DNA of 64,000 nt from Nocardiopsis sp. CC223A (GTDB lineage Bacteria; Actinomycetota; Actinomycetes; Streptosporangiales; Streptosporangiaceae): the NCBI RefSeq assembly GCF_030766825.1, contig NZ_JASFDV010000011.1, forward strand, positions 1 through 64,000. Direction: 5' to 3'. Under the pieces are notes generated by a model that saw nothing but the letters and a program-made list of their open reading frames with translations, had not been told where the DNA came from and searched no databases. The position numbers and the translations under genes were made by a program. Shown here one piece after another: positions 40,931-49,133 of this stretch (position 1 is the first letter of the stretch; every line of letters begins with the position of its first letter).

Positions 40931-41800
40931 TCAGGGGGCCAGCGCGGGGTCGCGCAGCCACTCCGCCAGGGTGTCCCGGCGCTCGGTGTCGCACTTGAGC
41001 GGGCAGGTGGTGCAGTACCCGTGCTCGGGGTCGCCCTTGTAGTCGAAGCAGCAGGTGCCGCGCACCGCCCAGGTGCCCTGCGGGTGCCCGGGCGCGAAGG
41101 GGAACAGGCGCGGGCGCCTGCGGGTGACCGCGCCGGCCGCCACCACGGCGTCGGCCAGGCGTCCGGCCAGGTCCCAGGCGGCCTCGGCGTCCCGGGCCAG
41201 GTAGCGGGCCGGGTTGAGCATGTAGAAGTACAGGGTGTCGAGCACCCAGCCCCACAGGGTGCGCTTGCCCGCCCGCGAGTGTTCGTGCAGGGCGTCGATG
41301 AGGGGCTCGAACGTCGCGAACAGGGCCTCGGCGGCCAGCCGGACCTGTTCGTCGGCGTCGCGGGCCACCACGGCGCCGGGCAGGCGGGCGGCCGGGTCGC
41401 CGGGCAGGACCGCGAAGCGCGTGTCCGCCGAGGCCGGGGTGCCGAACCGGGCGGCGGCGGTGTCCCAGGGCAGGTACAGGCCGTCGGGGTCGAGCAGGGG
41501 TGCGCGGCCGGTCAGGTACAGCGACGCCGACACCATGAAGATCGGCTCGCGCAGGGTGACCCGCAGGAAGTTGGTGGCGGCGGGCAGCCGGTGCCCGGGC
41601 CCGTGCTCGGTGCGCAGCTTGTCGAACAGGATCGGCACCCAGCCCTCGGCCGCCAGGGCGCGGGCGGAGTACCACTGCACGGTGCCGGCCGGGCGGTCGT
41701 GCAGTTCCTCGGAGGCGGTCAGCTCGGGGAGCGGGGAGAAGCGCAGGGGCGCACAGGCGTCACGGAGGGCCTCGATCGGATCAGGGGTCACCGGAGTCAC
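40931..41800 (-). CDS. FhuF-type siderophore ferric-iron reductase
   Basis: 289 aa from the GTG at 41800. The C-terminal [2Fe-2S] motif C-C-F-D-Y-K-G-D-P-E-H-G-Y-C-T-T-C gives the Cys pattern C-C-x10-C-x2-C that defines FhuF-like reductases, which release iron from ferric siderophores in the cytoplasm. The upstream domain (W-Y-S-A-R-A-L, N-F-L-R-V-T-L-R) is the FhuF N-terminal part. An IdeR-like box ~95 bp upstream implies iron-responsive repression. It follows no siderophore-biosynthesis gene, so it probably serves xenosiderophore uptake. Confidence 0.9.
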   Translation of the reverse strand: MTPVTPDPIEALRDACAPLRFSPLPELTASEELHDRPAGTVQWYSARALAAEGWVPILFDKLRTEHGPGHRLPAATNFLRVTLREPIFMVSASLYLTGRAPLLDPDGLYLPWDTAAARFGTPASADTRFAVLPGDPAARLPGAVVARDADEQVRLAAEALFATFEPLIDALHEHSRAGKRTLWGWVLDTLYFYMLNPARYLARDAEAAWDLAGRLADAVVAAGAVTRRRPRLFPFAPGHPQGTWAVRGTCCFDYKGDPEHGYCTTCPLKCDTERRDTLAEWLRDPALAP

Positions 41801-43387: not shown

Positions 43388-44590
43388 TCAGCGGATCAGC
43401 ACCAGGTGGTGGCGGGCCAGGACCGACACCACCTCCGCGGCCCGCTCCGGTGCCGCGCCCGCGGCCCCGGCCAGCTCCGCCACCGTCAGCGAGCGCCGCT
43501 CGGCCAGCACGCCCAGCACGTCCCCGACCTCGGCGGGGAACGTGTACCGGCGGCCGCCCACCGACAGGGCGACCTTGTCGCCCTCGCGGGTCAGCGGCGG
43601 CGGCAGGATCGGCACGAACTCCACCCGCGCCTCCGGACCCGGTGCGCCCTCCGCCATCGGCCAGGGCAGCGAGAACGACGTGCGCCGCGGGAACCGCGCG
43701 TCCCGCTCGGCCAGGAACGCGTCCAGGTCGGCCTCCTCGGCCAGCTCCGCCAGCCGCGCCGCCAGCTCCCGCCGGTGCTTGCGCCGCACGTCCGGGTCGG
43801 CGAACCGGGGCAGGTCCCGCCGGAACGCCTCCTCCTCGAACAGCCGCCGCACCAGGGCGTCGGCCCAGTCCACCCCGGTCGCCCGGGTGAACCCGAACGT
43901 CAGGTGCAGGCTCACGTCGCCGGTCCCGGTCACCGTGTGCCACCAGCCCCGCGGCACGTGCAGCACCTGCCCGGGCCGCAGCACCCCCTCCCACACCACC
44001 TGGAGTTCGCCGTCGGCGTCCCGCGGCGGGGTGTGGTCGTGGTCCACGTCGTTCTTCATCGGGTGGGGGCGCGACCCGGGTCCGTGCACCTGCCAGTGCT
44101 TGGTCCCCTCCACCTGCACGATCACCGTGTCGTGGTCGTCCCAATGGGTGTCGAACCCGCGCGACTCGCCCCAGATCAGGTACATGTTGGCCTGCACGCG
44201 CTCGCACACCAGCCGCATCAGGTCGTCGGCGGCGGCCGCCACCGGCGGGTGCATCCGGTCCAGCCCGTCCAGCACCAGGCTCGCCCCGGCGCGCAGCTCC
44301 CGGTACAGCGCCTCGGGCCGCACCACCCGGCGGGTCACCCGGGAGGCGGTGCCCACCTCGGTGTACCGGTCCACCGGGACCGGGGAGCCGTCCCGGTGCA
44401 GCCGCAGCCGCGGCGGCTCGGGGGCGCACGCCGCCAGCAGGGCGTTGAGGTCCTCGAACGTCACCAGGGAGCGCACCGCGTCCGCGCCCAGGTCGGCGAA
44501 CACGAACTCCTCCGACAGCCGCGCGGTCAGGGCCTCCCGGCCCACGGTGCCGCACAGCCCTTCACTGAACAGGTGGCCGGGATCGGTCAC
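43388..44590 (-). CDS. JmjC/cupin-4 2-oxoglutarate oxygenase, candidate RiPP modifier
   Basis: A 400-residue JmjC oxygenase started at the GTG at 44590 (ribosome site AAAGGCGGG; a TTG at 44608 extends the frame). Fe ligands are His149 and Asp151 (T-H-W-D-D-H-D) and distal His218 (P-R-G-W-W-H-T), with Lys164 (V-E-G-T-K-H-W) likely gripping 2-oxoglutarate, as in ROX-type ribosomal oxygenases. A C-terminal winged-helix-like part follows (V-L-A-E-R-R-S-L-T-V-A-E-L). ROX enzymes hydroxylate peptide side chains. It is the last gene of an operon whose middle member is a 35-codon acidic peptide, so hydroxylation of Asp or another residue in that peptide is my inference. Confidence 0.85.
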   Translation of the reverse strand: MTDPGHLFSEGLCGTVGREALTARLSEEFVFADLGADAVRSLVTFEDLNALLAACAPEPPRLRLHRDGSPVPVDRYTEVGTASRVTRRVVRPEALYRELRAGASLVLDGLDRMHPPVAAAADDLMRLVCERVQANMYLIWGESRGFDTHWDDHDTVIVQVEGTKHWQVHGPGSRPHPMKNDVDHDHTPPRDADGELQVVWEGVLRPGQVLHVPRGWWHTVTGTGDVSLHLTFGFTRATGVDWADALVRRLFEEEAFRRDLPRFADPDVRRKHRRELAARLAELAEEADLDAFLAERDARFPRRTSFSLPWPMAEGAPGPEARVEFVPILPPPLTREGDKVALSVGGRRYTFPAEVGDVLGVLAERRSLTVAELAGAAGAAPERAAEVVSVLARHHLVLIR

Positions 44591-44619
44591 TGGGTTCCCG
44601 CCTTTCAACGGACCGGGGG

Positions 44620-44653
44620 CCCGCCCGGCCCGGACGCGGCCGGACCGGGCGGG
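44620..44653 (-). terminator. Hairpin between peptide gene and oxygenase gene
   Basis: CCCGCCCGG and CCGGGCGGG pair across a 16-nt loop, between the peptide stop (44665) and the oxygenase start (44590). A partial terminator here would raise peptide mRNA above enzyme mRNA, as seen in many RiPP operons. Confidence 0.55.
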
Positions 44654-44664
44654 TGCGGATGGGA

Positions 44665-44772
44665 TCAGATGAAGTCGGAACTGGAGTCGGTACCGTCGCT
44701 GTCGCCGCCCGCGGTGATGTCGCGGGAGGTCACCTCGGCCAGCTCCTCGACCTCGACCTCGATGGGGTCCAT
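44665..44772 (-). CDS. 35-aa acidic peptide, candidate RiPP precursor
   Basis: Starts at the ATG at 44772 with GCGAGG about 9-14 nt upstream and ends at a normal stop. The N-terminal half (M-D-P-I-E-V-E-V-E-E-L-A-E-V-T-S-R-D-I) alternates acidic and hydrophobic residues and resembles a leader. The C-terminal half (T-A-G-G-D-S-D-G-T-D-S-S-S-D-F-I) is rich in Asp, Ser, Thr and Gly, with no Lys, Cys or Pro, like a core to be modified. It sits 32 bp after the prolyl oligopeptidase stop and 74 bp before the JmjC oxygenase. I do not recognise the family; the RiPP reading rests on context and composition. Confidence 0.6.
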   Translation of the reverse strand: MDPIEVEVEELAEVTSRDITAGGDSDGTDSSSDFI

Positions 44773-44804
44773 ACGCCGTACCTCGCTTTCCGTGTCGGTT
44801 TCCT

Positions 44805-47003
44805 CTAGGACCAGGACCGGCCCCGCGCCGGGCGGCGCGGCGACAGCCCCGTTCTGTGGGCCGCGAACGCGTGCGCGTCCGCGGCCAGCCCCACCGCCCG
44901 GCCGACCGCGCGCGGGCCGTGCCCGACGTCGCGCTCGTACCGCAGCAGGGCCGGTGGCCGCCCCTCCTCGGACCGGGCGGCCGCCAGCAGCGCCGCGCAC
45001 ATCTTGCGCGGGTGGGCGGCGTCGGTCCGGGTGTCCCCGGCGAACCCGGTGAGCAGCACGCTCGGGTACCGCAGCCCCGGAGTGCGCACCGCGCCCTCCA
45101 GCACCCGGTGGTAGGGCGAGTAGGACATCAGGGCGGCGAAGTCGTCGGGGTCGGCGACGGTCCCGAACTCGCGGGTCCACATCCGCCCCAGGCCCAGCCG
45201 CTCGAACCGGGCCATGTCGGCCAGCGGGGCCGAGGCGATCACCGCCGAGCACAGGTCGGGCCGGGCCGCGGCGGCGGCCAGCACCAGCAGCCCGCCGGCG
45301 GAACCGCCGGACAGGCACAGCCCCGAGCGGGTGCACAGGTCCGCCGCGACCAGGGCGTCGGCGGCCGCGACCAGGTCCTGCACCGCGCGCGGCTTGCCGC
45401 GTCCGGCCCCGGCCAGGTGCCACTCGCGGCCGATGTCGCCGCCGCCGCGCACGTGCGCCACCGCGTAGCGCCCGCCCGAGGCCAGCCAGGCCAGCACGGT
45501 CGCGCTGAACCCGAACCGGCGCGGGCGGCCGAACCCGCCGTAGGCGTGCAGCAGTGTGGGCAGCGGCCCCGTCGGCCGCTCCGCCGCGGAATCGGGGTGC
45601 GGGGCGTCCGGGGCGGGGCCGCGCGCGGTCAGGACGGTGACCGGGACCCGGGTGCCGTCGGCCGAGCGGCACCACAGCACGGTGCGCTCCACCTCGGGGG
45701 CGGGCGGCGGGGCGGCGGCCCCGGCGGGCCAGGGCAGCGGGCGGGCCGAGCCCGGGGCCAGGCGCAGCACCCGCTGCTGGGCGGTGACGTCGGCGTAGCC
45801 CAGGTACACGGCTCCGTCGGGGGCGGTGACCGGACCGCTCACCATGCCCTCGCCGGGCAGGTCGACGGTGCGCGCCGGGGCGCCGGTGCGGGCGTCGTGC
45901 ACGGTGGCGGAGTCGATGCCCAGCCGGGTGCGCACCACCAGCAGTTCGGGGGCGTCGGCGGTGCCGCAGGGCGTGAACGCGTCCAGTGTCCCCCCTTCCT
46001 GCTGGGGGACCACCTCGCGCCAGTGCTCCGGCCCGGGCCGGTCCGGGTGCGCGGCGCAGATCCGCCGCCAGGGGGCGTCCAGGGTGGTGCGCAGGTACAG
46101 CAGCCCGTCCGGGCCCAGGGCGGCCTCGGTCTCGGCCTCCACACCCACCTGGAGCGGCCGGAAGTCCGGCGCCTGCGGGGGGCCGCCCGCCCGGTCGGCC
46201 AGCCACAGGTCGGTGCGGTGCCCGGTGCCGTGGCTCTCGGTGAACAGCAGCAGCCGCCCGCCCAGGATCGTGATCCCCGGGACGGTCCCCGGCCCCGAGC
46301 AGGCCCGCACGAACACCTCGGTGCCGTCGGCGGCCCGGCGCAGCCACACCCCGCGGGTGCCGTCCTCGTCGTCGCGCCGCACGTAGTAGAACGCGGGCGG
46401 GCCCTGCGGCGTCCAGGCCACGTGCGAGTAGCGGACCCCGCGCACCGGCGGGCCGACCGGGTGGCCGTCGGCGGTGCGCAGCACCTGGAGGACGCCCCGC
46501 TCCACCCCGCCGGTGGAGGTCTGCACCGCGACCAGGCGGCCGGTGGGGTCGGGCTCCCAGGCGTCCAGGGTGGTGCGGCCGCTGGGGTCGGCCGCCGCCG
46601 GGTCGTAGACCACCCGGGCCCGGTCGGCGCGCACCGGGGCGGGGGAGCCGCCTGCGGCGGTCCCGGTGAGGAGGTCGGCGGGGGTGTCGAAGGCGACCAG
46701 GCGCGGGTGCTCGGCCCCGGCGGGGCGCACGGTGGCCATGACGAGCCCGGGGCGGTGCACCGGGGCCGACCACAGGTCGGCGTCCAGGTGGAAGCGGATG
46801 CGTGCGGCGAGCCGGTCGCGCAGCGTCCACCCGGCGGCCTCGCGGGCGTGGTCGCGGGCCCGCTCCTCCAGCCACCGCAGCGTCCGCGGGTCGTCGGCGG
46901 ACTCCAGCCAGCGGTAGGGGTCGGGCACGGGGCGGCCGTGCAGGGTGTCCACGACGGACGAGGGTTCGCGGACGAGGGCGACTCCGGGGGCTCGGTTGCG
47001 CAC
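44805..47003 (-). CDS. S9A prolyl oligopeptidase, candidate leader peptidase
   Basis: A 732-aa cytosolic serine peptidase: an N-terminal helix (E-S-A-D-D-P-R-T-L-R-W-L-E-E), a propeller, and an alpha/beta-hydrolase domain. Catalytic residues are Ser568 (G-G-S-A-G-G), Asp657 (F-A-G-D-T-R) and His695 (V-G-H-G-P). The family lid motif G-G-G-D-I-G-R-E-W-H precedes them. Prolyl oligopeptidases remove leader peptides in some RiPP pathways (for example FlaP-type). It is the first gene of the operon with the 35-aa peptide and JmjC oxygenase. The peptide has no internal Pro beyond position 3, so cleavage specificity would have to be relaxed or act elsewhere. The start is at 47003. Confidence 0.9.
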   Translation of the reverse strand: MRNRAPGVALVREPSSVVDTLHGRPVPDPYRWLESADDPRTLRWLEERARDHAREAAGWTLRDRLAARIRFHLDADLWSAPVHRPGLVMATVRPAGAEHPRLVAFDTPADLLTGTAAGGSPAPVRADRARVVYDPAAADPSGRTTLDAWEPDPTGRLVAVQTSTGGVERGVLQVLRTADGHPVGPPVRGVRYSHVAWTPQGPPAFYYVRRDDEDGTRGVWLRRAADGTEVFVRACSGPGTVPGITILGGRLLLFTESHGTGHRTDLWLADRAGGPPQAPDFRPLQVGVEAETEAALGPDGLLYLRTTLDAPWRRICAAHPDRPGPEHWREVVPQQEGGTLDAFTPCGTADAPELLVVRTRLGIDSATVHDARTGAPARTVDLPGEGMVSGPVTAPDGAVYLGYADVTAQQRVLRLAPGSARPLPWPAGAAAPPPAPEVERTVLWCRSADGTRVPVTVLTARGPAPDAPHPDSAAERPTGPLPTLLHAYGGFGRPRRFGFSATVLAWLASGGRYAVAHVRGGGDIGREWHLAGAGRGKPRAVQDLVAAADALVAADLCTRSGLCLSGGSAGGLLVLAAAAARPDLCSAVIASAPLADMARFERLGLGRMWTREFGTVADPDDFAALMSYSPYHRVLEGAVRTPGLRYPSVLLTGFAGDTRTDAAHPRKMCAALLAAARSEEGRPPALLRYERDVGHGPRAVGRAVGLAADAHAFAAHRTGLSPRRPARGRSWS

Positions 47004-47190
47004 CTACACATCGTTCGGCCCGCCCTATCGGACGGTCAAGAAAGAACCGACTCACCCGAAGGTGATACGGACCTTGCCGAAAGGTGAGGTCCGCAGGCCG
47101 GGGTGGCGGCGGCCCGCGCCCTCCGGGATTCGGACCGCCCCTATCCTCGCGGGGACGGGGTGCCGGTATGGGAGAAAGCGTACGCAAAGG

Positions 47191-47302: not shown

Positions 47303-48523
<1,221 letters not shown>

Positions 48524-49133
48524 GTCTGTGCTCCGCTGCATCGGGTCGGGGGTGACCGGGATCTCGTGGCCGTGGACCCGGGTCACCCGGACCGGTTCGT
48601 GCTCGTGTTGATCGAACCGGACTGCTTTGCTGATCATATGAGACAGGAATTTGATCGAAAAGTCCAGAGTTGGATCATGATCGATCTGGTTGTGGTCAGA
48701 CTGAAACCCGGAGTGCTCAACTGGCATGGCGGCCCGAGGTGCGTTAGCCTGTCCGACGGTTCACCACTTCCTCCCCAACGGACACTCGGCGGGGCCGCCA
48801 CGACACGGCGGCCGGGTTGAGGCATCCGGTTGGGGAGTCTGGGTAACCTAACGACCAGTCCAGCACTGGACGGACCGGTTGTGCGGCCCCCACTCGTCCG
48901 ATCGGACGCTGCATCACGCGCCAGGTGCAGCCGGGATCGGGTGAGGGGCGGAAGTAGCGCGACCGGGCGGGGGGTTGGACCCGGAAAAGGCCCGAACATC
49001 CAGTAGACAACGGTCTTCCGAGCTCGCCGCCGACGGGACGGAGCCGGTCCGAAGGGTGGCTCGGGCCTTTTCCGCGTCCCCCCAATATGCTGACCGCACA
49101 CCCTCACCACACCTGCGGAAAGCGAGACCCCAC

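Follow-up and report, generated by a model that had tools for sequence, protein, structure and literature searches.

What does a gene for a 35 amino acid peptide do between a peptidase gene and an oxygenase gene? The question is raised by a stretch of 64,000 nucleotides from Nocardiopsis sp. CC223A (NCBI RefSeq assembly GCF_030766825.1, contig NZ_JASFDV010000011.1, positions 1 to 64,000), the whole of which is called here the window. In it, genes for an S9 peptidase, the peptide and a JmjC protein, together called the trio, follow one another on the minus strand (Table 1), and a preliminary description had proposed that they form a minimal operon for a ribosomally synthesized and post-translationally modified peptide (RiPP). 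The common strand and the gaps of 32 and 74 bp given in that description were found again, as was a Shine-Dalgarno sequence (GAGG) before the 35 codons. We consider it likely that the trio is a small RiPP-type pathway in which the oxygenase binds the leader of the peptide and oxidises its core, most likely at Asp. Very probably the JmjC enzyme modifies the peptide as its substrate, and for Asp hydroxylation as the modification, taken on its own, we would put the chances at about even.

Conservation of the peptide gene beside two enzymes

The peptide reads MDPIEVEVEELAEVTSRDITAGGDSDGTDSSSDFI and was matched by no Pfam model (E up to 1) and no NCBIfam model. Since its frame sits inside a longer open frame, openness alone proves nothing. 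The preliminary description had made its proposal depend on conservation of the small frame beside both enzymes in related genomes, and such conservation was found. A scan of named genomes gave 47 peptide loci, from Nocardiopsis, Streptomonospora, Thermobifida, Marinactinospora, Murinocardiopsis, Marinitenerispora and Allosalinactinospora, and from records labelled Glycomyces, Actinomycetes (a metagenome-assembled genome) and Nocardiopsaceae bacterium (one each). The peptidase was upstream of the peptide in all 47, its match ending within about 270 bp, and the JmjC gene was downstream in 46, the exception being a contig that ends 15 bp past the peptide (L126). Thus, as in RiPP loci, a short precursor-like gene and a putative modifying enzyme are kept together. 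Among the 32 named copies of 35 amino acids (496 pairs), 2890 synonymous codon differences stood against 1041 non-synonymous ones, and over one and the same set of 37 loci the peptide reached a mean pairwise identity of 89%, the JmjC protein 71% and the peptidase 69%. The peptide gene is real and under purifying selection.

A peptide profile built from 20 peptides (A1) matched 68 of 298 genomes of the family, always in single copy and in 17 of 68 genera, while in a class-wide sample it matched 23 of 394 genomes, every one within the same family. Within the genus, 37 of 40 genomes carried the peptide; the three without an A1 match are G009, in which the JmjC match begins at base 6 of its contig, G016, which is 85% complete, and G026, which is in about 970 contigs. 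When loci were recruited by a JmjC match (L003-L032, the window's own included), a near-identical peptide was present in 29 of 30, and the remaining locus (L027) starts 60 bases before the JmjC match, its genome carrying the peptide on another contig. All 20 further loci picked for a JmjC orthologue (L034-L053) had the peptide, the peptidase and the JmjC protein, some of the enzyme matches being split.

The JmjC protein is of the JmjC ribosomal-oxygenase type. It carries the PF08007 domain, its metal ligands H149xD151...H218 are invariant across 30 aligned rows, and sequence comparison with solved structures puts it nearest to NO66, YxbC (for which a deposit as putative asparaginyl hydroxylase also exists), MINA, FIH and YcfD. 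Foldseek ranked NO66, MINA and YcfD at the top for an AlphaFold2 model of the protein (mean pLDDT, the predicted local distance difference test, 70; pTM, the predicted TM-score, 0.54), with a best E of 1.7e-19, a TM-score of about 0.4 and a root mean square deviation of about 20. We placed the start of the gene at GTG 44590, not at TTG 44608 of the mechanical list of open reading frames (ORFs), because AAAGGCGGG precedes this GTG and orthologues begin there (MTDPG.LF). The C-terminus of the model holds three strands (333-336, 339-344 and 347-352) and three helices (355-365, 370-377 and 381-393), in a block with pLDDT 71-94 from residue 331. This predicted domain looks like the RiPP recognition elements (RREs): hhalign aligned the 85 C-terminal residues with 14 PqqD-type sequences of related genomes at a probability of 81% (P 1.2e-5, 49 columns), and a control segment from the N-terminus gave 0.6%.

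Table 1. Features of the trio and its surroundings, in window coordinates
Feature	Position	Strand	Remarks
S9A prolyl oligopeptidase, trio-specific paralogue	44805..47003	-	732 aa, GTG start; Pfam PF00326 + PF02897
Precursor-like peptide, 35 aa	44665..44772	-	ATG start, GAGG upstream
JmjC_2 (PF08007) oxygenase, ribosomal-oxygenase fold	43388..44590	-	Pfam, alignments, solved relatives, fold search
RRE-like C-terminal domain of the JmjC protein (predicted)	43391..43639	-	AlphaFold2 model; hhalign against PqqD-type alignment
FhuF-like [2Fe-2S] iron-reductase-type protein, possible fourth partner	40934..41788	-	Limits from tblastn match; beyond a TetR gene
Promoter-like pair TTGACC-N17-GAACGA	47011..47039	-	Directly before the peptidase GTG
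GC-rich hairpin just past the peptide stop codon	44620..44653	-	Folding of intergenic regions
ABC ATPase of the sugar-import UgpC/MalK type	47303..48727		Transport gene upstream of the trio

Leader, core and related JmjC loci

We infer a leader of about residues 1-16 and an Asp/Gly/Ser/Thr-rich core of about residues 17-35 (DITAGGDSDGTDSSSDFI). The leader follows the pattern [FI]-E-V-E-V-E-[DE]-L-x-E-V, and a division of this kind, already claimed in the preliminary description, agrees with two further observations: the acidic and hydrophobic half matches leaders beside distant JmjC genes, and the JmjC protein has the RRE-like domain. Arg17 is invariant and is the only Arg or Lys in all 44 parsed trio peptides, and the sole proline is at residue 3 in 41 of them, at residue 14 in two and absent from one. 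All 20 rows of A1 have Ala21-Gly22, so a cut after Ala may be guessed at. An EF-hand or dockerin-like calcium loop in DSDGTDSSSD was rejected by eye, as the first loop position would be Gly and not Asp.

Apart from the trio itself, we collected a paralogous set of 41 loci of JmjC homologues with about 30-44% identity (L033, L054-L073, L162-L181), some of them closely related. By eye, 36 of these show a short, Asp-rich ORF that has a ribosome-binding-like site and lies upstream of the JmjC gene; none was seen in L067, L073, L177, L180 and L181. We refer to the trio peptides as type I, to those of loci such as L192 and L205 as type II and to those of loci such as L072 and L179 as type III. Repeat peptides (GGAD, GPADGGAEGTPGVQDGGAD, GDADTTDG and DADADST) precede the JmjC gene in L069-L072, L171-L176, L178 and L179, and the element DSDG[ST]D is shared by type I, type II peptides (L192 and L205, for example) and a single type III peptide, L179. 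None of the 41 paralogous loci gave a match to the trio peptidase. The preliminary description, which had spoken of just these three genes, was in this respect too narrow, the JmjC gene and the peptide recurring as a unit.

Matches to an aldo-keto reductase and an APH-like protein, some of them weak, lie near the JmjC gene in 20 paralogous loci. Thirteen have Suc_Fer-like matches: 11 together with Asp-repeat peptides, L177 with no peptide seen and L165 with a type II-like one. In L070 there is a repeat peptide but no Suc_Fer-like match. The genome of the window itself carries a second system (L033:400-3500, contig C132) composed of a peptide (...LLIAVEDIAALRSRGDQPSDGGGTGRSDTNDGFH), a JmjC protein, an aldo-keto reductase and an APH-like protein.

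A leader motif, written after these peptides had been seen, was scanned in six frames over 61 loci (717 kb) and returned 66 small ORFs. In 44 of these, Asp and Asn make up at least 20% of the tail, and every one of the 44 is found a short way upstream of a JmjC gene: 43 at no more than 450 nt and the other at 507 nt (L053, whose type I peptide precedes a JmjC match that is split). As would be expected of RiPP precursors, types I and II have a leader motif in common and their cores differ. From 17 peptides of the type II-like kind a profile was made (A4), every row of which has Arg at the place of Arg17; searched against 296 genomes of the class, it matched at 26 places in 22 genomes, with a JmjC gene in the same locus of about 3 kb at 24. 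Seventeen of the places were in genomes not earlier picked by JmjC, and 15 of them had a JmjC gene. In L195 the type II-like peptide is found with reductase and APH-like matches and no JmjC match within the locus of about 3 kb, and the match in L203 looks like chance. Among 73 JmjC proteins placed in a tree, type I forms a single clade (100/99) beside a type II subclade (93/80), and type III is weakly supported (75/26). The trio seems to belong, as one branch, to a broader family of JmjC-modified ribosomal peptides of which little has been described. Because Asp is the feature common to the paralogous precursors, it is our candidate for the oxidised residue; the type III core of L072 consists almost only of Gly, Ala and Asp, and Asp is therefore left as the reactive side chain.

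A putative pathway and its alternatives

The peptidase has the propeller and hydrolase domain, the triad and the proline pocket of an S9A prolyl oligopeptidase, and its nearest solved chain is the prolyl endopeptidase 2bkl (E 7.2e-74). In an alignment of 43 sequences (42 of the 47 named loci and the window), S568/D657/H695 and Y488, F491, W609 and R659, which by porcine numbering would be triad and pocket respectively, are invariant throughout. An Arg-specific oligopeptidase B that would cut after Arg17 was rejected, oligopeptidase B giving E 7e-22 against 7.2e-74 for 2bkl and the proline pocket being kept. A second S9 peptidase, with about 40-48% identity to that of the trio, is present in the same and related genomes, while among the matches listed (120 genomes) identities above about 60% came from trio genomes and from G016, the incomplete genome mentioned above. 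Judged by sequence, the trio peptidase is a separate, trio-specific paralogue.

TTGACC is present before the peptidase in all nine upstream regions inspected, including those of Thermobifida fusca (L142) and Marinactinospora (L155), and in seven of them GAAnnA comes 16 or 17 nt later (L122 and L142 differ); CCTTGACCG occurs ahead of the peptidase in 16 of 42 regions. In the window the peptidase GTG comes 7 nt past the second box, so leaderless transcription would fit. After the peptide, a stem of at least 9 bp is found in 45 of the 47 loci and in 90 of 235 mononucleotide shuffles, its arms differing from genus to genus (twelve examined). Over 44 intergenic regions the mean folding z was -2.45, with 27 below -2 and with low strength in the window itself (-1.11) and in L116 (-0.23).

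Beyond conservation, gene order and folds, we infer the following steps. Transcription of all three genes probably starts from a promoter ahead of the peptidase, and the stretch of mRNA that encodes the peptide may be protected or favoured by the hairpin. The RRE-like domain would bind the leader, as its fold and the conservation of the leader suggest, and the JmjC active site would oxidise the core, most likely by beta-hydroxylating one or more Asp. The dedicated prolyl oligopeptidase might then trim the modified peptide or a leader fragment. The product would be a conserved, single-copy, housekeeping-like molecule of the clade and not a variable antibiotic, with metal (iron) binding as the leading guess at its function. 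A core that hardly varies, present once per genome, suggests that the product serves the cell as a cofactor, signal or metal ligand and is no antibiotic; such physiological roles are less common among RiPPs and may be compared with those of PQQ and mycofactocin. If this is right, bacteria can make a conserved peptide product with one oxygenase that has its own leader-binding domain, enzymes of this family have branched out over several kinds of precursor in actinobacteria, and bacterial JmjC enzymes have a natural substrate class.

Several points weigh against a RiPP pathway. No exporter was identified near the trio, and no systematic exporter search was made. The peptidase is intact in all 43 sequences, but its proposed part in maturation sits poorly with a proline that is mostly at residue 3, and the conserved proline expected near the core as a cleavage point was not found in the 44 parsed peptides. 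The PqqD Pfam model did not match, either on the JmjC protein at E 1 or at the locus at 0.001. The RRE-like domain may be a plain winged helix of ribosomal oxygenases, and both the JmjC model and its Foldseek TM-score are modest. The leader motif had no match in 17 of the 61 loci, mostly of type III, which gave none, and the match between type I and type II leaders is short (hhalign probability 30%, P 5.5e-4). The oxidised residue, moreover, is not fixed, as Arg17 competes with Asp (see below). The RiPP reading of the preliminary description is thus supported in the pairing of peptide and JmjC protein and in the leader and core, and not in the peptidase as maturase or in the limit to three genes.

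The proposed pathway may be extended, without being replaced, by supposing that beta-hydroxyaspartates of the core chelate Fe(III) and that an FhuF-like reductase frees the iron, an idea that we regard as possible but doubtful. A gene for an FhuF-like protein (PF11575 above the cut-off, PF06276 below it) lies downstream of the trio in 41 of the 47 named loci, in the same orientation in all 41 and within about 200 bp after the JmjC gene in several genera. In four of the six other loci (L126, L138, L145 and L152) the downstream sequence is shorter than 3 kb, and L118 and L139 are without the gene over 4.3 and 4.7 kb. An FhuF-like protein also lies downstream of the more distant JmjC gene at L056:5200-7436 (44% identity), which is accompanied by a peptide of its own (MPDTEQSLLVSVEEIDSAHDRATGSLTDNDGND). 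This neighbour, like the DxDGxD core, hints at iron. However, FhuF occurs in only one of the 41 paralogous loci, other genes intervene in many loci, and linkage within one clade may be inherited synteny. An IdeR/DtxR iron box before the operon was also rejected, the best candidate being mismatched at 8 of 19 positions. We would advance only tentatively, and as a conjecture that may well fail, an undescribed RiPP family over several actinobacterial families, in which a JmjC enzyme with its own recognition domain would convert Asp-rich precursors (DxDGxD, GGAD and GDADTTDG repeats) into poly-beta-hydroxyaspartate peptides, the Nocardiopsis-Thermobifida product being a conserved ribosomal iron ligand with a dedicated prolyl oligopeptidase and an FhuF-like reductase.

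It is unlikely, in our estimation, that the JmjC enzyme hydroxylates Arg17 as YcfD does on ribosomal protein L16, tuning cleavage nearby and leaving Asp with only charge or metal binding. YcfD is a structural relative of the JmjC protein, BipG acts on ornithine derived from Arg according to passages of PMC12707348, and the conservation of Arg17 in type I and of its counterpart in A4 would fit. Nevertheless, the L072 precursor contains no Arg, type III loci lack a leader-motif match, and an Arg at the end of the leader equally fits a role in recognition or cleavage.

We think it improbable that the peptide is an unmatured adaptor or regulator, for example a peptidase inhibitor or a JmjC activator, with the JmjC enzyme acting on some other substrate. 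A near-invariant, single-copy peptide with no conserved Pro and no identified exporter could be read in this way, but paralogous JmjC genes have upstream peptides with a common leader and very different cores, long repeats among them, which is the pattern that substrates would be expected to show, and the peptidase was not found in any of their 41 loci. That the three genes are conserved but functionally unconnected neighbours is very improbable: although all trio genomes belong to one family, so that synteny may be inherited, the pairing of JmjC gene and peptide recurs in other families with different neighbours, and the spacing is operon-like with a promoter-like sequence.

Upstream of the peptidase, a gene named by eye as an Sfp-like phosphopantetheinyl transferase was seen in 16 of the 47 named loci within an upstream flank of about 6 kb (L122, L136-L140, L142, L144, L145, L152, L154-L156, L159-L161), some of which are labelled Nocardiopsis.

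Comparison with known systems

PCY1 and OphP appear among the solved relatives of the trio peptidase and share with it the S9A family, an intact triad and the proline pocket. Together with FlaP, we take them to be RiPP-associated prolyl oligopeptidases, from which the trio differs in that its presumed substrate has no conserved Pro near the core. With NO66, MINA53 and YcfD, the JmjC protein has the fold and the HxD...H metal ligands in common, but its identity to them in the fold search is about 17-22% and its gene adjoins that of a small peptide.

No description of the trio or of its Asp-rich precursor kin was found in the open-access literature, most subscription papers lying outside the search, and of the papers found there only PMC12710340, PMC12707348 and PMC12257519 concern JmjC enzymes in RiPPs. 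The preliminary description had called a RiPP built on a JmjC enzyme and a prolyl oligopeptidase unusual, but JmjC enzymes in RiPPs are not wholly new, as parts of PMC12710340 and PMC12707348 indicate. In the 2025 RRE-Finder update, a section describes RRE-like folds joined to JmjC domains of PF08007 and notes that bacterial homologues stand in contexts resembling those of RiPPs (PMC12710340). The JmjC protein studied here resembles these in its domains and its setting; that section names no precursor, leader motif, peptidase or product for them. BipG, presented in passages of PMC12707348 as the JmjC ornithine hydroxylase of biphenomycin biosynthesis and related to BpmG and PbsQ (excerpts of PMC12257519), is likewise a JmjC-type enzyme in a RiPP pathway. 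The BipG cluster, as given in those passages, carries radical SAM, MNIO, HExxH and TldD genes, whereas the trio core lacks the FRF motif of biphenomycin-type cores (0 of 20 A1 rows). A scan of the three trio proteins and of five ORFs next to them, not all of which need be genes, gave no arginase, B12-radical SAM or MNIO. In other RiPPs, beta-hydroxylation of Asp is attributed to MNIO or HExxH-type enzymes in portions of PMC12636437 and PMC13060819. The pathway proposed for the trio would share this modification with them but would use a JmjC enzyme to make it.

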